A stretch of DNA of 34,844 bases, from contig CAILUT010000057.1 of the NCBI GenBank assembly GCA_903837495.1, positions 1 through 34,844 on the forward strand, given 5' to 3'. Every line of letters starts with the position of its first letter. Position 1 is the stretch's first letter. The stretch comes from an uncultured Flavobacteriales bacterium (lineage in GTDB: Bacteria; Bacteroidota; Bacteroidia; CAIKAF01). Below, piece after piece: positions 16,986 to 30,072 of this stretch. The notes under the pieces were generated by a model. It had not been told where the DNA came from. It saw nothing but the letters and a program-made list of their open reading frames with translations, and did not search any database. A program made the position numbers and the translations under genes.

Positions 16986-17126
16986 GCGGTAGGGATTGAA
17001 CCCAGTAGCTCGGCGGGCAAAAGCTGTACTGCTGCGCGCGCTGCGGAGGCGACCTTGGGAGCCCCCGCAAAGCCGCTGCAGCAGACAGGTTTGGCCGCCG
17101 ACTACGGGTGAAAGCCCGGCTACCGC
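16986..17126 (+). repeat. 141-bp hairpin element, copy B
   Basis: This copy lies between the small secreted gene and recQ, 16 bp past the recQ stop and in opposite orientation to recQ. The ends are GCGGTAG and CTACCGC. Inner pairs are GTAG/CTAC, CGGCGG/CCGCCG, CAAA/TTTG, CTGT/ACAG and CTGCTGC/GCAGCAG, with apical TGCGG/CCGCA. The core GCGACCTTGGGAGC is at 17049-17062, the exact midpoint. The end pair T-A replaces C-G of copies C, D and E, a compensatory change. Nine A residues follow within three bases of its end. Confidence 0.85.
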
Positions 17127-17142
17127 CACAAAAAAAAAGAAA

Positions 17143-19670: not shown

Positions 19671-22600
19671 ATGAACACTTCATTCCTAAAATTTTTCATT
19701 GCGGCCACCTTGTTTGCCTCGGCCGCGGTACATGCACAATGTCCGAGCATTACAGGAAACACCTCGCCTACCTGTGGACAAACCACCACTCTGACTGCCA
19801 GTGGAGGAAGCAACTATCAATGGTTTAACAACAACCAAGGTACGGGCAACCCACTGAGTACTTCGGCGAATTTTACGACACCCCCCATCACCACTTCAAC
19901 CACCTATTATGCTGCATCGCCTGGGGGATTAAGCAACGTAAGCGGTTTTACCAGTTGCTATGCGACCAACAATTGGTCGGTCAATCAGACTGGAAACGCG
20001 AACGGCAGCGTAAACACGGGAAATGCCCCAACAAGCATTGTATTGACTGGTCCGAATAGTGTAAGTGCGGGCGTTTATACCCGGTATCAAATCACCATCC
20101 CCGCCACCGGAACCTTGTCTTTCAACTGGAGTGTTCAGCACAACGATTGCTGCAGCTTCGATTATTTTGGCTATACTTTAAACGGAGCCAACACGGCCTT
20201 AACCTACAGCAGCCAAAGTGGATTCACCAGCATCGCCGTAACGGCAGGTTCAACCTTTGCATTTACCGGATATACGGTTGATGGCTGCTGCGGCACCTTT
20301 AACGCCACCATTTCCAATTTCACGGCACCTTGCCAAAGCCTATGCTTCACTCCGGTTACGGTAAACCCCAGCCCCATTGCCGCACCGGTAATCGGATATG
20401 TGGGCAATTCTGTTTTGTGTACCGGCACCACGGTTACCCTAAACACCAATCAAAACTCGGGCATTACTTGGAGCACCGGTGCGAATACGCCTACCATTAC
20501 GGTAAACACTCCCGGCACCTACAGCGCCACCTATACCGATGGAAACGGCTGTACCAGCAATTCTTCAACTCCTGTTACCTTGAATTTGTTCCCTGGCCCC
20601 AGCGCTCCCTCCATCATCAATTTAAATCCCTTGAGCGGTTGTGCTTACGACACCACCTTTTTGCAAGCCAGCTTAATGGCGGGGATTACTTGGAGCAGCG
20701 GAGACACAGGCCAAACCGTTCCGGCTATTGTGCAGGGCACCTATACAGCGACGGTTACAGATGTCAATGGCTGTATTTCTCCGCCCTCCAATGCCTTAAC
20801 CGTAACGGTTAACCCTGCCCCCATCATTGCCTCGGCCAGCACCCCCGACATCTGTTTGGGCTTGCCTACTCCGTTTAATGCCAACGTCCAACTGGGCAAC
20901 ACGAACAATGCCAGCATCAGTTCGGTGGCCTGGACCTTTGGCGACAACAACACTGGAAACACCTTAAACAGTCCGCACACCTACGCCAACACTGGCAGTT
21001 ACCCGGTTGGTTTGATTGTAAGTACCAACCACGGTTGTTCCGACACCTTGCTAACCACCGTTTTAGTCAATCCCAAGCCTTTGATTTCAAGCACCAGCGG
21101 TGCGGCCGTTTGCCATACCAATGCCACCTTGTTCAATCAAAGCACTACGGTTTCGAACGTAAACGGAGCGCAGATTAATGGATACGCCTGGACGTTTGGC
21201 GACGGAAATCAAAGCAGCCAATCGGCCCCCAACTACAGCTATGCCCAACCCGGCAGCTACTCGGTTCAGGTGATTGCATCGACCAACCAGGGCTGCTTAG
21301 ACACAGCTACCCTCAACGCCTTGGTGCATCCCAATCCGGTGCTGGGTTCGGTTTCCATTCCCAGCGGTTGCCAAGGAGCCGCCACCGCTTTAAACACCTC
21401 GGCCAGCGTGGCCAACGTGAACGGCGCTGTGATTTCTTCAACGGTTTGGACCTCAGGAGACGGAGGCAATGCCAACGGACTGCAAACCACCTACAATTAT
21501 GCACAACCCGGCAGCTACTCCGCGTTTGTAGTAACAACCACCAACCACGGCTGTACCGATACTGCCTTTGGAACGGCGGTGGTGAATCCTAGCCCCCAAA
21601 TCAACAGCACCACCTTCCCCGATGTGTGCTTTGGAGCTCCAACCCTATTCCTACAGAACTCTTCGCTATCCAATGTGAATGGAGCCCAGATTACCGGTTA
21701 TTTCTGGACTTTTGGTGATGGAACTACCAGCCCTTCGATGAATCCGACCAAAACCTATGGTTCGACCGGTGCATTTCCCGTGAGCTTTACCATCAACACC
21801 AACCAGAACTGCCCTGCGGTGTTCCAGGACACGGTGTTGGTAAACCCCTTCCCCGTCATCAGCGGCATTACCGCAGCCGATGTGTGCCAAGGCACGCCCA
21901 GCAACTTTGTTCAAAACAGTTCGGTGCCTCCGGTCAACGGCTCGGTGGTGAATGCCTACCAATGGCATTTTGGCGGAGGCAACACCAGCACCCAAGCCAA
22001 TCCATCGTTCACCTATGCCAATCCAGGCACCTATAATGTGAACTTAACGGTGAGTACGAATTATGGTTGCAGTGCCTCTTCGAGCGGTCAGGTGGTTGTG
22101 AATCCCAACCCTGTAATTTCGAGCATGTCGGTGGGCGATGTATGCCTAGGAAACGGCAGTGCTTTCTCGGCCTCGGCCTTTGTTGCTCCGGCCAACGGAT
22201 CGGTAATTAGCGGCAGCAACTGGAATTTGGGCGATGGAAACCAATCGGCACAAACCAACTTTAGCCACACCTATGCCAATGCGGGGCAATATGTAACCAC
22301 GCTAACCTTTACCAGCAACAACGGCTGCAGCACCTCGCAATCCATAACCACCCAGGTTAATCCCAATCCAGTTGTTGCTTCGGCCTCGGTCAACACTGTT
22401 TGCCAAGAAGCATTTAGCCCCTTTACCTCATCGGCATCGGTTCAGAACATCAACGGAGCTGTAATTTCAGGATACCAATGGGATTTTGGCGATGGAAATC
22501 TGGGCAGCAGCGGCAACCCCAACCACGTGTATGCCAACTATGGAAACTACAACTGGAGTGTTACCGTCAGCACCAACCACGGTTGCACCGACGTATTTAC

Positions 22601-23381
22601 AGGAAGCACGACCATCTTGCCCAAGCCACAGGCGGCCTTCACCTTGCCCGACCATTGCCGAGGCACCTTGATGCCCATTACCAATACATCTAGCATTGGT
22701 TCTGGCAGCATCGTTGCGACCCAATGGAATACCAGCACGGGGATGAGCAGCACCATGCAGGTACCCAGCTGGTTCTTCCCAAATGCCGGAAACTATACGG
22801 TTACCCTTATGTTGACCAGCGATTTGGGTTGCAAAGACACCCTGACTCAAAACGTGCTGGTTACCGATTTGATCAACTCCAACTTTAGCCCCACTTTATT
22901 GACTACGAACACGGTGCATTTCTTGCCCGACACCTTGGATCCGTATTTGAACTACTTCTGGGATTTTGGCGATGGAACATTTAGTTACGACATCAATCCC
23001 CAAAAGTTGTTCTTTTTCGCTGGATTGTACACGGTTTGCCTGACCATTACCGACAATGGCTGTTCAAGCACGACCTGCAACCCTGTTCAGTTGAACGTGG
23101 CGGGCGGTTTAGACCAAGCCGGAAACTGGAAAACCAGCATTTATCCCAACCCCTTTGATGCGGAGTTGAGCATAGGCTTGAGTGGATTAAGTCAGCAGGC
23201 AGAATTGCGCCTGCGCGACCTGAGCGGAAGGGTATTGGTGCAGCGTACGGCTCAGCCGATTTCGGGAGAACTGTTGTTCCAGTTAAATGGGAATGACATT
23301 CAAAACCTGCCTGCCGGCATGTACGTGGTAAGTGTAGATACCCAAGAGGGTAGCCAGCACTTCCGGGTGCTGAAAAAGTAA
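19671..23381 (+). CDS. Giant surface protein with nine PKD-like modules and T9SS sorting domain
   Basis: A 1236-residue exported protein with signal peptide MNTSFLKFFIAATLFASAAVHAQ. Residues about 25-85 form an Ig-like unit (ITGNTSPTCGQTTTLTASGG). About 90-235 is a unique region with a Cys-Cys pair (HNDCCSFDYFGYT, DGCCGTFNATI), and about 236-382 holds two more Ig-like units. Nine PKD-like modules of about 82-88 residues follow (about 383-1142), each with a W-x-FGDG-type turn and ending near V-NP. Seven contain a conserved Cys pair (for example ICLG and HGCSD). Module 8 has lost the FGDG turn (WNTSTGMSS). The C-terminus is a T9SS domain (SIYPNPFDAELSIGLSG, LPAGMYVVSVDTQ). It is probably an adhesin or matrix protein. 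A strong terminator follows 20 bases later. Confidence 0.92.
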   Translation: MNTSFLKFFIAATLFASAAVHAQCPSITGNTSPTCGQTTTLTASGGSNYQWFNNNQGTGNPLSTSANFTTPPITTSTTYYAASPGGLSNVSGFTSCYATNNWSVNQTGNANGSVNTGNAPTSIVLTGPNSVSAGVYTRYQITIPATGTLSFNWSVQHNDCCSFDYFGYTLNGANTALTYSSQSGFTSIAVTAGSTFAFTGYTVDGCCGTFNATISNFTAPCQSLCFTPVTVNPSPIAAPVIGYVGNSVLCTGTTVTLNTNQNSGITWSTGANTPTITVNTPGTYSATYTDGNGCTSNSSTPVTLNLFPGPSAPSIINLNPLSGCAYDTTFLQASLMAGITWSSGDTGQTVPAIVQGTYTATVTDVNGCISPPSNALTVTVNPAPIIASASTPDICLGLPTPFNANVQLGNTNNASISSVAWTFGDNNTGNTLNSPHTYANTGSYPVGLIVSTNHGCSDTLLTTVLVNPKPLISSTSGAAVCHTNATLFNQSTTVSNVNGAQINGYAWTFGDGNQSSQSAPNYSYAQPGSYSVQVIASTNQGCLDTATLNALVHPNPVLGSVSIPSGCQGAATALNTSASVANVNGAVISSTVWTSGDGGNANGLQTTYNYAQPGSYSAFVVTTTNHGCTDTAFGTAVVNPSPQINSTTFPDVCFGAPTLFLQNSSLSNVNGAQITGYFWTFGDGTTSPSMNPTKTYGSTGAFPVSFTINTNQNCPAVFQDTVLVNPFPVISGITAADVCQGTPSNFVQNSSVPPVNGSVVNAYQWHFGGGNTSTQANPSFTYANPGTYNVNLTVSTNYGCSASSSGQVVVNPNPVISSMSVGDVCLGNGSAFSASAFVAPANGSVISGSNWNLGDGNQSAQTNFSHTYANAGQYVTTLTFTSNNGCSTSQSITTQVNPNPVVASASVNTVCQEAFSPFTSSASVQNINGAVISGYQWDFGDGNLGSSGNPNHVYANYGNYNWSVTVSTNHGCTDVFTGSTTILPKPQAAFTLPDHCRGTLMPITNTSSIGSGSIVATQWNTSTGMSSTMQVPSWFFPNAGNYTVTLMLTSDLGCKDTLTQNVLVTDLINSNFSPTLLTTNTVHFLPDTLDPYLNYFWDFGDGTFSYDINPQKLFFFAGLYTVCLTITDNGCSSTTCNPVQLNVAGGLDQAGNWKTSIYPNPFDAELSIGLSGLSQQAELRLRDLSGRVLVQRTAQPISGELLFQLNGNDIQNLPAGMYVVSVDTQEGSQHFRVLKK

Positions 23382-23401
23382 TGCTTGCTTAGTGAAAAGA
23401 G

Positions 23402-23433
23402 AAACGCCGGGCATTTTGTCCGGCGTTTTTTTT
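23402..23433 (+). terminator. Rho-independent terminator of the PKD gene
   Basis: AAACGCCGG pairs with CCGGCGTTT around a nine-base loop (GCATTTTGT), with eight T residues at 23426-23433. It starts 20 bases after the stop codon. The first 86-bp repeat unit begins immediately after the T run. Confidence 0.92.
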
Positions 23434-23904
23434 GAAAGGCGTTATGAAGGGTTGCCACGAATGTTGTGATTTCCTGGCTAAATTGACATGGCCCTTATAA
23501 TCCATGATTTTTTAAAGGCATTATAAGGGTAGCCACGAATGCACGAATGTTGTGATTTCGCGGCTAAATTGTCATGGCCCTTGTAATCCATGATTTTTGA
23601 AAGGCGTTATAAGGGTAGCCACGAATGCACGAATGTTTTGATTGCCTGGCTAAATTGTCATGGGCCTTATAATCCATGATTTTTGAAAGGCGTTATAAGG
23701 GTAGCCACGAATGCACGAATGTTGTGATTTCCTGGCTAAATTGTCATGGGCCTTGTAATCCATGATTTTTGAAAGGCGTTATAAGGGTAGCCACGAATGC
23801 ACGAATGTTTTGATTTCGCGGCTAAATTGTCATGGCCCTTGTAATCCATGATTTTTGAAAGGCGTTATGAAGGGTAGCCACGAATGCACGAATGTTTTGA
23901 TTTT
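23434..23904. repeat. 86-bp tandem repeat array, five units plus a partial sixth
   Basis: Units start at 23434, 23513, 23599, 23685, 23771 and 23857. Units 2-5 are exactly 86 bp. Unit 1 is 79 bp because it lacks eight bases (GCACGAAT) and gains one. Unit 6 stops matching near 23904. Each unit carries GCCACGAATGCACGAATG (except unit 1) and an inverted repeat, TTATAAGGG near its start and CCCTTATAA near its end, with AGCCA/TGGCT inside it. Variants such as CCCTTGTAA keep pairing through G-U. No open reading frame with a gene-like composition crosses the array. It starts directly after the PKD gene terminator. Confidence 0.95.
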
Positions 23905-23964
23905 GGGGTTAGATTGGCGCAAGGAAGCTGAGCCGCGGGGAGCTTAAAAGAATGGCAACAAAGA

Positions 23965-24034
23965 ACTACCCACTACCCACTACCCACTACCCACTAATAA
24001 CTACCCACTAATAACTACCCACTAATAACTACCC
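23965..24034. repeat. 7-bp satellite, ten units of ACTACCC / ACTAATA
   Basis: Four ACTACCC units run from 23965 to 23992, then three copies of the 14-bp pair ACTAATA-ACTACCC to 24034, for ten perfect 7-bp units in all. A partial ACTA follows. The two-step structure suggests one 7-bp expansion and a later 14-bp expansion. It lies between the main 86-bp array and a detached unit of that array. Confidence 0.95.
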
Positions 24035-24041
24035 ACTAAAA

Positions 24042-24107
24042 AGCCACGAATGCACGAATGTTTTGATTTCCTGGCTAAATGGTCATGGCCTTCGTAATTA
24101 TTGATTT
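24042..24107. repeat. Detached partial unit of the 86-bp repeat
   Basis: The stretch from AGCCACGAATGCACGAATG to the final GATTTTTA matches the 86-bp unit from its eighteenth base onwards, with several substitutions (for example GTCATGGCCTTCGTAATTATT). The leading GAAAGGCGTTATAAGG is replaced by the end of the 7-bp satellite. The inverted repeat is therefore incomplete here. Confidence 0.85.
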
Positions 24108-24191
24108 TTAAAACCGCCTGGAAAAGGAGCCTAGAAGAGGCTGACACATGGGTCGGCCCCAACAATACCACACGCCAAACGGACAGGAGTC

Positions 24192-24333
24192 GCGGCAGGG
24201 ATTGACGCAACTACCCCGCAAAGGCCGAAACGGCTGCCGGCCCATTACCGGCAGAGCGACGTGAGGAGCTACTGCCGGGCCTGGGCTGGCCCGTTTTCGG
24301 CCTGCGGAGTAGTGCGGAAAGCCCGGCTGCCGC
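24192..24333 (+). repeat. 142-bp hairpin element, copy C
   Basis: This copy lies between the repeat array and purL, 16 bp past the purL stop and opposite in orientation to it. The ends are GCGGCAG and CTGCCGC. Inner pairs are CTAC/GTAG, CCGCA/TGCGG and GGCCGAAA/TTTTCGGCC. An apical hairpin has CCGGCAG pairing with CTGCCGG around AGCGACGTGAGGAGCTA. The core GCGACGTGAGGAGC is at 24256-24269, exactly the midpoint. It is closely related to copy E. Confidence 0.88.
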
Positions 24334-24349
24334 GCAAAGGCCACGAAAA

Positions 24350-26596
24350 TTACCCCAACCAAGTACTCAAATGGGTGGCATCCCATTGCATTGCATCTTC
24401 AAGGCTATGCCATTTTTCCCCATCAAAGGACAGATGTTCGCCCCCAGTTTCGCCCAAATAAAGGGCTGGGACCTCCAATTCGGCCAAAAGATCCACAACG
24501 GCATCTTCGTTTTCATCCAATATGGAAACCACTACCCTGCCCTGGCCTTCGCCAAACCAAAACGCATCGGGCCGTATGTCGTCGTCTGAATACACTTCAA
24601 ATCCGGTTTTGCCTGCCAAGGCCGATTCTTTCAAACATTGGTATAGGCCTCCCTCCGACACATCGTGGGCCGACAGAACCAAGCCCTGCTGAATAAGCCC
24701 AGAAATGCCTTTTTGCAGTTGAACTTCTTGGTCTAGATTAAAATAGGGCGCCGGCGATTTGGATATTTTATGCCATTCGCGCAGGTATTCAGAGCAAGAA
24801 AAATCGGGAGTAACCATTCCCACCAACAGCAATTTGGCTTTGGTTGAGGGAAATGCGAGGCCGGTGTGTTGTTCGAGTTTATCGAGCACGCCCAGCATGC
24901 CAATAGAGGGACTTGGGGCTACCGGAAAAACCTGTTCCCCTTCGCGGTATTGATTGTAGAAGCTCACATTGCCACCCGTAACCGGGGTTCCCAGGGCCTT
25001 GCAGGCTTTGCCCATTCCCTTAATGGCGCCTACAAATTGCCAATAGGCTTCGGGGTTGTAGGGGTTTCCAAAATTCAGGCAATTGGTAATGGCTATGGGC
25101 CGAGCTCCAGAGCAAACGATGTTTCGGGCCGCTTCGGCCACGGCCATCATGGTTCCTTTTTCGGGGTTGGCTTCTACGTACAACGGATTTACATCTACGG
25201 TCAAGGCCAAGGCCGATTCGGTTTCTTTCACCCAAACTATGGCTGCATCCGAAGGTTTGCGCGTGCTTAAGTTGGCCGTACCAATCATGGAATCGTACTG
25301 CTGGGTAATCCAATGCTTGGGCCTTAAATTGGGCGTGCTGCTCAGGCAGTCGGCCACGGATTTTAAGTTTTTAGGAATGGGGAGTTTGCCCGGAATCACC
25401 TCGTTTATTTCTTTTACATAAGCGGGTTGAGCCATTTCGCGTTCGTACACGGGGGCTCCGCCGCCCAGCACCAACATCGAAGCGGGGAGTTGAGCCACCA
25501 AATCGGCACCAAAGAAAAAATCGAGTCGGTCGTCGGAAACCACTTCACCAATCAGGGCACAGTTTAGGTCCCATTTTTCGAAGATGCTATGAATCTGGGC
25601 TTCATGCCCTTTTTTGCCCACCACCAGCATGCGTTCTTGCGATTCAGACAGCAACAGTTCGTAGGGCTGCATATTGCCCCCTCGGGTGGGCACTTTGTCT
25701 AAATGAATGCGCATGCCGCTGCTGCCTTTTTCTGACATTTCGGCTGTGCTGCAAATAATGCCTGCGGCGCCCATGTCTTGAATTCCAATGGCGTGGCCGG
25801 CCTCAATCAATTCTAAGGTGGCTTCCAGCAGCAGTTTTTCTTGAAAAGGGTCGCCTACCTGAACCGAGGGCAGCTGTTTGGAACTTTCGCCCGACATTTC
25901 GGCCGAGGCAAAGGAGGCGCCGTGGATTCCGTCTTTCCCGGTGGCTGAACCCACGATAAATACGGGGTTTCCCGGCCCGTAGGCAATGGCGCTCATCACT
26001 TTATCGTGGGCCACAATGCCGGCCGACATGGCATTTACCAGGGGATTTTGGTGGAAAGAAGAATGAAAAAAGGTTTGTCCCGCCACGGTAGGTACGCCAA
26101 AGGCATTGCCGTAATCGCCAATGCCTTTTACCACTCCTTTCACCAACCATTGGGTTCGGGACTCGGCGGGATCGCCAAAAAATAGGGCATTCAATTGAGC
26201 AATGGGCCGGGCGCCCATGGTAAAAATATCGCGGTTGATTCCTCCAACGCCGGTTGCGGCACCCTGATACGGTTCAATGGCGCTGGGGTGGTTGTGGCTT
26301 TCAATTTTAAAGGCACAGGCAAGTCCATGCCCAATGTCAACTAGGCCGGCATTTTCTTTTCCAGGTTCGGCAAGCAAGCCCTTTCCCTCTCGCGGCAAGG
26401 TTTTTAGCCAACGAATGGAATTTTTATAGGAGCAATGTTCGCTCCACATGCCCGAAAATGCGCAGAGTTCGGTAAAATTGGGTTGCCGCCCCAAACCTTG
26501 AACAATAAGGTCAAACTCTGAGGGCAAAAGGCCCAGTTTTACAGCGGTTTCAGCAGTGGGCATGGGAGCTCCGTCGGAAGGAACAGATTGAGGCAT
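24350..26596 (-). CDS. purL: Phosphoribosylformylglycinamidine synthase subunit II
   Basis: The 748-residue cytoplasmic enzyme makes formylglycinamidine ribonucleotide from FGAR, ATP and ammonia (step four of purine synthesis). It is the small type, so it needs separate PurQ and PurS, which are not in the window. Key blocks are FSGMWSEHCSYKNS near residue 45, the active-site IESHNHPSAIEPYQGAATGVGG near 97-118, DMGAAGIICSTAEMSEKG, and in the second half the AEAARNIVCSGARPIAITNCLNFGNP stretch. SAHDVSEGGLYQCL marks the C-terminal ATP-like domain. ATG 26596 (MPQSVPSDGAP) is chosen; the TACCTTTG box at 26611-26618 lies 14 bases upstream and would exclude the longer frame. Hairpin copies C and D flank the gene. 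Confidence 0.96.
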   Translation of the reverse strand: MPQSVPSDGAPMPTAETAVKLGLLPSEFDLIVQGLGRQPNFTELCAFSGMWSEHCSYKNSIRWLKTLPREGKGLLAEPGKENAGLVDIGHGLACAFKIESHNHPSAIEPYQGAATGVGGINRDIFTMGARPIAQLNALFFGDPAESRTQWLVKGVVKGIGDYGNAFGVPTVAGQTFFHSSFHQNPLVNAMSAGIVAHDKVMSAIAYGPGNPVFIVGSATGKDGIHGASFASAEMSGESSKQLPSVQVGDPFQEKLLLEATLELIEAGHAIGIQDMGAAGIICSTAEMSEKGSSGMRIHLDKVPTRGGNMQPYELLLSESQERMLVVGKKGHEAQIHSIFEKWDLNCALIGEVVSDDRLDFFFGADLVAQLPASMLVLGGGAPVYEREMAQPAYVKEINEVIPGKLPIPKNLKSVADCLSSTPNLRPKHWITQQYDSMIGTANLSTRKPSDAAIVWVKETESALALTVDVNPLYVEANPEKGTMMAVAEAARNIVCSGARPIAITNCLNFGNPYNPEAYWQFVGAIKGMGKACKALGTPVTGGNVSFYNQYREGEQVFPVAPSPSIGMLGVLDKLEQHTGLAFPSTKAKLLLVGMVTPDFSCSEYLREWHKISKSPAPYFNLDQEVQLQKGISGLIQQGLVLSAHDVSEGGLYQCLKESALAGKTGFEVYSDDDIRPDAFWFGEGQGRVVVSILDENEDAVVDLLAELEVPALYLGETGGEHLSFDGEKWHSLEDAMQWDATHLSTWLG

Positions 26597-26618: not shown

Positions 26619-26709
26619 GCCGATTTCTTACACTGCACGATTGAAAGCGTACAGCAAAAATGGGTCAACGGGCAAAGTCCTGCTGTGGTTTTATTGTTGG
26701 TTTATGGGG

Positions 26710-26850
26710 GCGGCAGGCGGGCTTTCCGGGCTACTCCGCGGTTGCCGAAAGGCTGGCCCAGCTGGTTTGCGGGGGCTCCTAACGTCGCCTCCGCACCTAG
26801 CGGGCCAGGCTTCGGCAGCCTTGCGGGGTAGCCTCGTCAATCCCTGCCGC
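26710..26850 (-). repeat. 141-bp hairpin element, copy D
   Basis: The only copy between divergent genes, in the same orientation as purL and 113 bp upstream of its ATG. Read on the minus strand the ends are GCGGCAGG and CCTGCCGC. Inner pairs are CTACCCCGC/GCGGAGTAG (one mismatch), then GCCGAA/TTCGGC and TGGCCC/GGGCCA. The apical pair is TGCGG/CCGCA around a core, GCGACGTTAGGAGC, at plus 26775-26788. The stem sequence differs from copies C and E, while the base pairing is preserved. Confidence 0.87.
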
Positions 26851-26947: not shown

Positions 26948-27895
26948 ATGTCCAAGTATCAAGATAGCTATAGAGTCTTTTGCGCCGAGCAGACCGATTT
27001 GTCGGTGTTTGCCCAGCCCTGGTGGCTCGATGCCGTTTGCGGAGAAACCGGCTGGGAGGTGCAGTTGTGGCAAACCGACAACCAAATACAGGCCGCTTTG
27101 CCTTATCGAAAGGTAAAGAAATGGGGCTTAACCCGCTTTGAAATGCCGCCTTTAACCCCCTTTTTTCCGTTGATGGTAGTCAACCGACAGCCTAGGGACA
27201 TGCACCAACGGCTTTCTTTGCAAAAAAAAGGCATTGAGGCTTTGCTGAGCGGGCTGCCCAGCTGCCATGCCCATGAATTGCGGATGAGTCCTGAAACGGA
27301 GTATGTCTTGCCATTTTATTGGCATGGATATGCCTTGCAGACGCGGTACACCTTTCGGATTTTTCCGAACGAAAACCATGTGCCCTCGGCTCAGGCCAGG
27401 AAAAACATTCGAAAAGCCGAAGAGCTTGGGATTGGGATCGAAGAACTGGAATCAACCGAAGCCTTGCTGCAGATAGTGCAGGCGCCGTTTGAGCGTAAAA
27501 AAATAAAAAGTCCGTATTCCAATGAAGTTCTTCGGCGTGCGATAGACGAAATTAAAAGCCGTGGGGCGGGTTTTTTGGTGCAGGCCAAAGACAAGGAGGG
27601 CCGGGTGGTATCGGCAGCGGCTTGTGTGAGCGATTCTCAGGCTTGCTATTTGATATTGGGGAGTTCGACGGAAGAGGGGCGGAGGCAGAATTCGGAGTAT
27701 TTGCTGTACGATGCTTGCATAAAGAAAGCCCAATCGATGGGGTTGATTTTCGATTTTGAGGGCAGCATGTTGGAGGGCATAGAGGCCCGCAACCGGGCCT
27801 TTAATGCCAGGCCGGTGGCTTACACGAGCGTGCAGCGTTTTGGGCCTAGGTATTCGTTTTTGTTGGGGTTAAAGGGGTTGTTGGGGAGGGGGTAG
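26948..27895 (+). CDS. GNAT/FemAB-like acyltransferase-fold protein
   Basis: A 315-residue cytoplasmic protein starting MSKYQDSYRVFCAEQTDLSVF. It has AQPWWLDAVCGETGWEVQLW near residue 22, then an ALPYRKVKKWGLTRFEMPPL block, then a second half with VVSAAACVSDSQACYLILGSS, EYLLYDACIKKAQSMGL and FDFEGSMLEGIEARNRAFNA. These match the two-lobe layout of Bacteroidota GNAT proteins related to FemAB (acetyltransf_6 type), which often modify surface polymers or peptides. The acceptor cannot be read from the sequence. ATG 26948 is the first ATG that fits the domain start; an upstream TTG in frame adds an unlikely leader. The gene is convergent with the glycine-rich gene, with only 11 bases between the stops. 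Confidence 0.72.
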   Translation: MSKYQDSYRVFCAEQTDLSVFAQPWWLDAVCGETGWEVQLWQTDNQIQAALPYRKVKKWGLTRFEMPPLTPFFPLMVVNRQPRDMHQRLSLQKKGIEALLSGLPSCHAHELRMSPETEYVLPFYWHGYALQTRYTFRIFPNENHVPSAQARKNIRKAEELGIGIEELESTEALLQIVQAPFERKKIKSPYSNEVLRRAIDEIKSRGAGFLVQAKDKEGRVVSAAACVSDSQACYLILGSSTEEGRRQNSEYLLYDACIKKAQSMGLIFDFEGSMLEGIEARNRAFNARPVAYTSVQRFGPRYSFLLGLKGLLGRG

Positions 27896-27906
27896 TTGGG
27901 TGGAAA

Positions 27907-29193
27907 TCAATACGAGATTTTCACTTGTCCGTGGCCCGTTCTACCCCCAGTTGATGTGGAGGCATTTGAGGTTGAATAGGACCCGTGGCCACCTATGTAA
28001 GACGAGCCTCCGCCACCCGCTTGATGGGAGAATCCGCAGGCTCCACCATACCAGCCACCACCACCACCACCTACCCATCCAACCGTAATGTTCATGTCGG
28101 CATTGGCCCCTTGGCCAAAGCTGCCATTTTGCCCACCGGTCCCGCCGCTGTTTTGATTTCCGCCTGTGACATTACCGTAGCCAGAACAACCTGCGTTTTG
28201 CCCAGTGGTACCCCCGCCGTGGCCACCGGTGCAGCTTCCGTTGTTGGTAGCTCCACCGCCGCCGCCGCCTACCACCACCCTGTGGTTCAGAGTTTGTCCA
28301 CCCAGCCGCACATCTGAAGCACCACCACCGCTGCCTGCCATGGATGCGCTGTTCCAAGAATATCCATAACCTCCTCCATTAAAAGCGGCAGAGCTATATC
28401 CGTTGGCAGGCACGGCCGGCCCTTCTTGGCCCACATAAATATAAACGGTTTCGCCGGGAGTTACTGGGAAGGTCGCTACGGCATAGCCACCTTGCCCCCC
28501 CGCATATGTACCCGTCCACCCTGCGGCACCCCAACATTCCACGATTAAGGAACAAACCCCTGCTGGAACTGTCCAGGTTTGTGCCGAACCTGAATAATTA
28601 AAGGTTTGACTGGCATTTTGAACAGAGCAAGATGAAATAACAACCTGAACGGAATCGGAAGCTGAACATCCGTTGGCATCTGTAACGGTTAAAACGGCAG
28701 AATAGGTTCCTGTTGAGCTCCAGGTAATGGAAGGAGAGGAAGCGCTGGAGGTAGATGGGCTACCGGAGGCAAAGGTCCAAGCGTAGGTGCTGCCCTGGAC
28801 GGGATTGGCGACATTCAGAACAACAGGAGCATTTGCAGATCCAACGGGATTGGCGGGTGAAATTGCTGCAGAGGGCAATTGAGTACAGTTGCATTGCAAG
28901 GTTCTCCAACCGGCTGCGAAGTACGATTCCACGCATTGGGTGGTGGTATTGTAAATGACCAAGCCAACGGCCGGCGAATTGATGTTGTTGCGTTGGGCAG
29001 TGCTGAGCCGAGGAAGAAGAAAGCCCTTGTTGGTAAAATCAACATCCAGACCTGCTGATGCATGTGGCAGTCCGGGGTTGGCTCCGATAAGCACCCCTTG
29101 GGCTTGTATTTCATTGCAAGCGAAAAAAACACCAAGGGCTATTAAAAAAGCACTTTTAAAAATAAGCTTAAAAAAAATTACGCTTGAATTCAT
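27907..29193 (-). CDS. Secreted glycine-rich protein with PKD domain
   Basis: A 428-residue exported protein. The N-terminal hydrophobic stretch (MNSSVIFFKLIFKSAFLIAL, then VFFACNEIQAQ) is a signal peptide ending at AQ. Residues about 35-95 form a Bacteroidota-type module (ASAGLDVDFTNKGFLLPRLS, VGLVIYNTTTQCVESYFA) resembling phage-tail-like secreted proteins. A PKD-like domain lies at about 105-185 (AWTFASGSPS, CSASDSVQVVIS). The second half starts FNYSGSAQTWTVPAGVCSLI and becomes a glycine-rich domain with long GGG and GGGG runs, ending HGQVKISY, similar to glycine-rich domains of the ALK-type group. No T9SS sorting domain is visible, so its export route beyond the inner membrane is unclear. 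A TAAATTTG box lies 25 bases upstream of the ATG. Confidence 0.75.
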   Translation of the reverse strand: MNSSVIFFKLIFKSAFLIALGVFFACNEIQAQGVLIGANPGLPHASAGLDVDFTNKGFLLPRLSTAQRNNINSPAVGLVIYNTTTQCVESYFAAGWRTLQCNCTQLPSAAISPANPVGSANAPVVLNVANPVQGSTYAWTFASGSPSTSSASSPSITWSSTGTYSAVLTVTDANGCSASDSVQVVISSCSVQNASQTFNYSGSAQTWTVPAGVCSLIVECWGAAGWTGTYAGGQGGYAVATFPVTPGETVYIYVGQEGPAVPANGYSSAAFNGGGYGYSWNSASMAGSGGGASDVRLGGQTLNHRVVVGGGGGGATNNGSCTGGHGGGTTGQNAGCSGYGNVTGGNQNSGGTGGQNGSFGQGANADMNITVGWVGGGGGGWYGGACGFSHQAGGGGSSYIGGHGSYSTSNASTSTGGRTGHGQVKISY

Positions 29194-29218
29194 AAGCAAT
29201 TGTAAGGGTTAGTTAAAT

Positions 29219-29226
29219 CAAATTTA
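29219..29226 (-). promoter_or_regulatory. Putative -7 box (TAAATTTG) for the glycine-rich gene
   Basis: TAAATTTG on the minus strand is a full TAnnTTTG match, ending 25 bases before ATG 29193. A TTG lies 21 bases upstream, two more than the usual 19, so the promoter is only moderately supported. Confidence 0.4.
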
Positions 29227-29291
29227 GCAATAAGTTAAAGGGGATTTCAAGCTAGCTTTAAATTTTGTTCGGTTAAGGCCTTGAGCCGCCT

Positions 29292-29433
29292 GCGGCAGGG
29301 ATTGACGCGGCTACCCCGCAAAGGCCGAAACGGCAGCTGGTCCTTGACCAGCAGAGCGACGCGAGGAGCTACTGCTGGGCTTGGGCCAGCCCGTTTTCGG
29401 ACTGCGGAGTAGCCCGGAAAGCCCGGCTGCCGC
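29292..29433 (+). repeat. 142-bp hairpin element, copy E
   Basis: This copy lies 48 bp past the lspA stop in opposite orientation. The ends are GCGGCAG and CTGCCGC. Inner pairs are GCTAC/GTAGC, CCGCA/TGCGG and GGCCGAAA/TTTTCGG with a short mismatch. An apical CCAGCAG/CTGCTGG stem surrounds AGCGACGCGAGGAGCTA. The core GCGACGCGAGGAGC is at 29356-29369, exactly the midpoint. Compared with copy C, the apical stem CCGGCAG/CTGCCGG is replaced by CCAGCAG/CTGCTGG, a matched change on both sides. Confidence 0.88.
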
Positions 29434-29481
29434 CCCCAGAAAAAGGTGAAAAAATCCAATGATTGTCAAAAGGCAGCAACC

Positions 29482-30072
29482 TTAGGTTTTGCGCTTCGCT
29501 TCCGGCTCCTTTTTCTTGAAAAAAGAAAACACCAACATGCAGCCGACTCCGACCGAGATGCAGGCGTCGGCGAAGTTCCAAATGGGGGGAAAGATGAGCT
29601 GTCCGCCCATGGATTCGGGCCAATGCACATTGAACAAAAACATATCGACCACTTTTCCTTGCAGCCAGGGCGCATATCCCGTTTCTGGAAAGGCGGTAGC
29701 CACAAAAAAGCGGCTGCTTTCGCTGAACAGCTGACCGTAGGCAACCGAATCAATAATGTTGCCAAGGGCGCCGGCAAAAACCATGGCTAGGCCGACCGAC
29801 ATTAAATTCATGGGGCCCTTTTTCAGCATGTCGTACAGCAGGTAAAAGATTCCACCGACTGCCAGCAGGCGAAAAAGGGTCAGGGCTATTTTACCGGCTT
29901 CTCCGCCAAATTCCAATCCCCAGGCCATGCCATTGTTTTCGATAAAATAAATTTCGAGCAGATTGCCCAGCAAGGGGAAACCTTCGCCAACAAGCATGGT
30001 TGTTTTAACCCATATTTTAATGAGTTGGTCAACCAAAATCAATCCCACAATCAATCCCAGCGTTTTTTTCAT
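29482..30072 (-). CDS. lspA: Lipoprotein signal peptidase (signal peptidase II)
   Basis: A 196-residue inner-membrane aspartic peptidase that removes signal peptides from prolipoproteins after lipidation, so it would process the lipoprotein encoded at 4645. Four hydrophobic segments are visible. The catalytic aspartates are D108 (GALGNIIDSVAYG) and D169 (IWNFADACISVG), and IENNGMAWGL is the family's NxGxxWG-like block. The length is slightly above the usual 160-170 residues because of a loop after D108 and a basic C-terminus. It starts three bases after the DksA-like stop, so it is the third gene of the ileS operon. Confidence 0.95.
   Translation of the reverse strand: MKKTLGLIVGLILVDQLIKIWVKTTMLVGEGFPLLGNLLEIYFIENNGMAWGLEFGGEAGKIALTLFRLLAVGGIFYLLYDMLKKGPMNLMSVGLAMVFAGALGNIIDSVAYGQLFSESSRFFVATAFPETGYAPWLQGKVVDMFLFNVHWPESMGGQLIFPPIWNFADACISVGVGCMLVFSFFKKKEPEAKRKT

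Follow-up and report, generated by a model that had tools for sequence, protein, structure and literature searches.

REP and BIME sequences, together with the TnpA-REP (RAYT) genes associated with them, constitute the 'REPtrons' (PMC6006769), and a range of REP families has been catalogued (PMC3733652). In these systems a small nuclease gene is flanked by repeats, gene-less copies of which are dispersed over the intergenic regions, either singly, in inverted pairs or in clusters, with the type of repeat following the subclass of the enzyme and the distribution being patchy. The repeats described here share each of these habits, but whereas the enzyme of REPtrons is of the HUH Y1 type, that encoded by the flanked gene in this case is a PD-(D/E)XK family protein, GxxExxY, which is already named and modelled (TIGR04256; Pfam PF13366, PDDEXK_3); likewise, REP are GTAG- or GGAG-footed palindromes, whereas the unit here is a tandem heptamer. 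MITEs and terminal-inverted-repeat elements are also comparable, in that inverted pairs with short interiors occur beside rarer gene-bearing copies and are sometimes nested, but here only the ends, and not the interiors, are common to different copies. The STRR of cyanobacteria are heptanucleotide repeats arranged in tandem between genes, as are the repeats of this study, although their sequences differ.

The window analysed is a 34,844 nt stretch of DNA from an uncultured Flavobacteriales bacterium, the genome of which is referred to as G000. Tandem Repeats Finder identifies a tandem array at 23456-23903, with a period of 86 bp, 5.2 copies and 94% matches; the whole array spans 23437-23916 and is comprised of four exact 86 bp units with truncated units at its ends. 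The features of the locus are as follows.

23402-23433, plus strand: intrinsic terminator belonging to the gene upstream (19671-23381) and shared by congeners G002, G003 and G005
23437-23515, plus strand: unit 1, 79 bp, with half a core (GCCACGAATG at 23454-23463)
23516-23601, plus strand: unit 2, 86 bp, core at 23532-23549
23602-23687, plus strand: unit 3, 86 bp, core at 23618-23635
23688-23773, plus strand: unit 4, 86 bp, core at 23704-23721
23774-23859, plus strand: unit 5, 86 bp, core at 23790-23807
23860-23916, plus strand: unit 6, cut at about 23916, core at 23877-23894
23965-24039, plus strand: ACTACCC-type tandem heptamers, a second repeat family of this genome
24042-24112, plus strand: isolated copy, 87% identical to the unit, core at 24043-24060
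17040-17132, 24191-24338, 26708-26850 and 29291-29435: copies of a G+C-rich repeat of around 145 bp
27873-29507, no strand assigned: site at which G005 has its only GxxExxY gene, flanked by the same core; G000 instead has a 430 aa Gly-rich ORF (27907-29199)

The original prediction, of an array in which units 2-5 (23516-23859) are exactly 86 bp long, beginning directly after a terminator T run within a gene-free gap, proved accurate: the array starts where the T run of the hairpin at 23402-23433 ends, and the gap between the surrounding genes extends over 23381-24350. The first unit carries one CACGAATG where the others have two, and the separate copy at 24042-24112 lies beyond the array as originally delimited. 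The further claim that each unit folds back on itself stands for only some of them. Pairing of TTATAAGGG with CCCTTGTAA, allowing for G-U pairs, is present in units 2 and 5, but the outer-arm pairing is broken in units 3 and 4, which have GCCTT, and unit 1 has TTATGAAGG; RNA folding z-scores for units 2-5 are, in order, -4.2, +0.7, -1.7 and -2.6. Of the two sets of arms, the orthologous array of the sister genome, G005, retains the inner AGCC/GGCT set and not the outer one. The fold of the whole 86 bp unit could not be upheld as the defining feature, as the length and remainder of the unit vary among arrays (70, 86, 87 or 89 bp); the constant part is instead an 18 bp core. No match to Rfam was found in the window at the curated threshold. 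A CRISPR array was rejected, since entire 86 bp units are 92-94% alike rather than consisting of constant repeats with unrelated spacers, and when integron attC arrays were considered, no cassette genes were found between the units.

A search of the 2.5 Mb genome of G000 for the core, GCCACGAATGCACGAATG, allowing two mismatches, gave 110 matches, while the same search with a reversed control pattern returned none. These copies form around 39 clusters, many of them at contig ends, and 13 of the 21 clusters that could be interpreted are located in gaps between convergent genes. When the clusters are set out in register, most share a TTA or similar triplet and the core, after which the sequences differ, and the tandem unit is 70, 86, 87 or 89 bp long depending on the cluster. 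Allowing one mismatch, the sister genome harbours 147 copies and four other congeners have none. More broadly, among the matches listed by a scan of public genomes, the core occurs in many Bacteroidota and in a few records of other phyla; the 'cacgaat'-type repeats originally mentioned for other Bacteroidota intergenic regions are therefore real. Within the phylum, CACGAATNCACGAAT is carried by 19 of 296 sampled genomes, reaching 35-98 copies in some and often occurring as inverted pairs 25-145 bp apart. The interiors of inverted pairs of the core differ between copies, and no target-site duplication was evident at the one site compared.

It had been argued that the absence of copies elsewhere and of variation in copy number would point to a local neutral duplication. 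A search for single units in this genome and its relatives recovered the core more than 100 times in G000, and again in the sister species and across the Bacteroidota, while the number of units in the array differs between G000 and G005; the repeat is therefore more than a local neutral duplication. Other arrangements of the core were also encountered. For instance, arrays with 28-29 bp spacing are present in other Bacteroidota (loci L079, L104, L105 and L120), reaching 16 copies in L120 and lying on both sides of a GxxExxY gene in L079. At three further loci (L415, L416 and L424), inverted pairs of CACGAATT enclose pairs of ACATAG, CGCAGAT and CACAGAT words, an arrangement resembling the nested insertion of elements that differ in word type.

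A neighbouring 772 aa protein was used to anchor the locus in all congeners. The sister genome is colinear with the window, in inverted orientation, and has an array of six 87-88 bp units at the same place, directly behind the same terminator, whereas G002 and G003 have this terminator without an array and thus represent empty sites. Hence the array dates from the ancestor that G000 and G005 have in common, unless it was lost from the others. In a comparison of these two species, identity is 99% for the core and just 66% for the remainder of the unit, less than the approximately 85% of the surrounding DNA; within each species, units are 92-93% alike outside the core. The units have therefore been homogenised separately in each species, with the core alone being held constant. 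At the end of the sister array (L352), GAAT is repeated around ten times (GCCACGAACGAATGAATGAATG...), which looks like slippage of the core into a tetranucleotide repeat.

An association with RAYT was tested for. No PF01797 (Y1, RAYT-type) transposase was detected in G000 or G005, while five control genomes were positive, and the core was found within two mismatches at none of 50 RAYT loci drawn from motif-bearing genomes, congeners and others; where RAYT loci were inspected for repeats, the palindromes present were different ones, such as AGCTCCGTAGGAGCG. Membership of the REP/RAYT class was accordingly rejected. The RAYT genes of congeners G001 and G004 (L248 and L249) are flanked by clusters of AGCTCCGTAGGAGCG, which at L249 forms a tandem array of around 18 copies at 25-26 bp spacing.

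That GxxExxY genes occur among repeats of this type, a link that the original description did not anticipate, was taken as a starting assumption and prompted a test of the neighbouring genes. When ORFs beside exact copies of the motif in other genomes were scanned with no selection for GxxExxY, PDDEXK_3/GxxExxY was the most frequent Pfam and NCBIfam family, at five of 90 ORFs, and in 115 motif loci the distance between a GxxExxY ORF and a motif was 0-110 bp in all six cases. The reverse test identified GxxExxY genes in 58 genomes with the TIGR04256 model, disregarding repeats, and compared inverted matches between the two flanks of each gene (score of at least 14) with those obtained when flanks were swapped between genes. 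Inverted flanks were found at 38 of 63 genes, against two expected, and direct similarity between flanks was also raised, to a lesser extent (21/63). At least two copies of one of 18 listed heptamer words were present at 66 of 71 GxxExxY loci, in comparison with six of 50 RAYT loci and six of 70 displaced windows. As the list of words had been derived from the same GxxExxY loci, it was also applied to 45 held-out genes; a listed word was present at 31 of these, and inverted flanks at 30 of 44 against 0.5 expected. The pattern extends to other phyla (Verrucomicrobiota, Acidobacteriota, Ignavibacteria and one unclassified bacterium), in which 27 of 42 genes have inverted flanks, against 0.8 expected; at locus L438, for example, CACCACAGAGGCACAGAGGACGCAGAGAT precedes the gene and AATCTCTGTGTCCTCTGTGCCTCTGTGGT follows it. 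The genes in these samples are not fully independent, as relatives recur and the removal of duplicates extended to identical proteins alone, yet every sample shows a large effect. The brackets of small GxxExxY nuclease genes, mostly inverted relative to each other, consist of a 7-8 bp word in short direct repeats. The word found in the array, CACGAAT, flanks a GxxExxY gene in G005, G242, G280, G260 and G224 and at six loci of other genomes. Per genome, the co-occurrence of gene and repeat is moderate (11/16 versus 9/41, p 0.0014) and confounded by genus, and a CACGAAT-clade gene is missing from several of the genomes that carry the motif. In the open-access literature searched, GxxExxY is mentioned by two papers, one of them in an unrelated context, and neither the CACGAAT motif sequences nor any link between GxxExxY and repeats was found; a repeat class flanking GxxExxY genes clade by clade in several phyla is apparently undescribed, with a prior description elsewhere being possible.

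The type of heptamer follows the phylogeny of the nuclease, each clade having its own word. On a tree of 77 genes the word type changes 24 times, in comparison with 50 for shuffled labels (none of 200 shuffles being as low), and all 15 CACGAAT genes, six of which were found through the motif and nine of which were not, fall within a single clade of 20 genes (SH-aLRT 96), the other members having CACAAAT, CACAGAT or CGCAAAT. Similarly, a tree of 122 genes requires 33 changes against 75 when shuffled, and the smallest group to contain all CACGAAT genes has 27 rows, some with CACTAAT, CGCAGAT, CGCAAAT, CACAAAT or CACAGAT. Proteins of the CACGAAT clade conserve a D...E-[IV]-K pattern (ADFV..KIILE[IV]K) of the kind typical of PD-(D/E)XK enzymes, making it plausible that they are catalytically active. 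An AlphaFold model of this clade's GxxExxY protein, built from six rows, has a mean pLDDT of 54 and is too poor to inform catalysis, and a sequence search of solved structures with the protein gave no significant match.

Within the genus of the window, the distribution of gene and repeat is uneven. The TIGR04256 model detects no GxxExxY gene in G000. The single such gene of G005 belongs to the CACGAAT clade and lies approximately 3.9 kb from the array orthologous to that of the window; its TAG stop codon is followed at once by TTAGCCACGAATGCACGAATG, although its own inverted bracket is degenerate, with a score of 17. The corresponding position in G000, at 27907-29199, is a variable site adjoining a conserved gene, and no target-site duplication or clean gene insertion was found there. 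The Gly-rich ORF that occupies it also appears to be present in G003 and is absent from G002. The GxxExxY gene of congeners G001 and G004 belongs to a different clade, and a search of 15 genomes for CACAGATNNNCACAGAT gave 12 matches, every one adjacent to that gene; dispersal of this CACAGAT word had been predicted, but was not found. Since the flanking word has not dispersed in G001 and G004, possession of the gene is not in itself sufficient.

Genes of the short, multicopy four-helix-bundle family PF05635, mostly from the same genomes, provide a comparison. None of 29 PF05635 loci has two copies of a GxxExxY word, and they have inverted flanks of their own kind (15/29 versus 1.8 expected, at a score of at least 12), formed of words that differ from those at GxxExxY genes. 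The only PF05635 gene of G000 (L477, C24:4545-4862) has ACTACCC-type tandem heptamers on both sides, the same repeat that adjoins the array at 23965-24039, which suggests a second pairing of gene and repeat. Heptamers of the ACTACCC type were observed at 16 of 38 G000 loci examined. The G+C-rich intergenic repeat of around 145 bp (GCGGCAGGGATTGACG...CGGAGTAG..CGGAAAGCCCGGC) is present in at least four copies in the window, one of them partial, and also in G002, G003 and G005, with no Rfam match.

We read the system as REPtron-like but with an unrelated nuclease, lying outside REP/RAYT, given that the Y1 enzyme was looked for and is missing. The array is probably a local amplification, without the gene, of a repeat family associated with a nuclease, with spread in the manner of RAYT and REP as the likely mechanism. 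By analogy, the nuclease would recognise its own clade's word, in this case CACGAAT, as found in GCCACGAATGCACGAATG, and cut at it, with repair then copying repeat-bearing DNA to new, tolerated intergenic sites, such as those just behind terminators. Gene-less copies, whether single cores, inverted pairs or tandem arrays, could spread in this way through intergenic regions, while unequal exchange would make existing copies grow or shrink, so that the arrays of one species come to resemble each other and to differ from those of another. The nuclease would have been present in the ancestor shared with G005 and subsequently lost from G000, where the persistence of the array in the absence of a GxxExxY gene counts against this explanation. 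The more general proposal, put forward tentatively and at slightly less than even odds, is that GxxExxY proteins are sequence-specific nucleases that recognise the heptamer of their own clade and drive widespread, non-HUH, REP-like selfish repeats in at least the Bacteroidota, Verrucomicrobiota, Acidobacteriota and Ignavibacteria, with separate repeats of this sort for the unrelated PF05635 family.

The main rival is a form of homing, in which some other route accounts for the spread of the repeats, and the GxxExxY gene, as a passenger, is copied into pre-existing heptamer repeats that its nuclease cuts, making these targets and not products. Retention of over 100 copies by a genome without the gene would fit this account, as would the motif-bearing genomes that have no CACGAAT-clade gene; but in G001 and G004 the word is found only beside the gene, leaving no dispersed pool for it to have entered, and the recurrence in several phyla of inverted bracketing with one word per clade also makes this account rather unlikely. 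More doubtful still is that a host function, as nucleoid, gyrase or terminator-related sites or as structured RNA, maintains the repeats, with the nuclease association being secondary. A core that stays constant while the body of the unit drifts is what such a function might produce, and the position of the array behind a terminator, the frequency of convergent gaps among clusters and the better folding of some units than of shuffled sequences are all compatible with it, yet the core is missing from four congeners and most of the phylum, orthologous sites are empty, and the unit has neither an Rfam match nor a uniform fold.

The two remaining alternatives are both highly improbable. A REP/BIME family mobilised by a RAYT would have the same intergenic habit, with inverted pairs, clusters and patchiness between species, but this is countered by the lack of PF01797 in G000 and G005 and of the core at RAYT loci. 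Local tandem duplication of a unit with nothing special about it would, through plain unequal exchange, give unit numbers that differ between species and units homogenised within them; such exchange is likely to be the way in which the array grew, but the 110 dispersed copies of the core, in around 39 clusters with different unit bodies, refute neutral duplication as the full account.

In many environmental bacteria the intergenic regions contain recurrent words such as CACGAATnCACGAAT, CACAGAGnCACAGAG and CGCAAAGnCGCAAAG, at which many of the G000 contigs also end. The tie to a nuclease gene, with one word per clade, provides these repeats with a probable cause and an uncharacterised nuclease family with a probable substrate. 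If this is true, then a second, unrelated enzyme fold would have reached the REPtron way of life.
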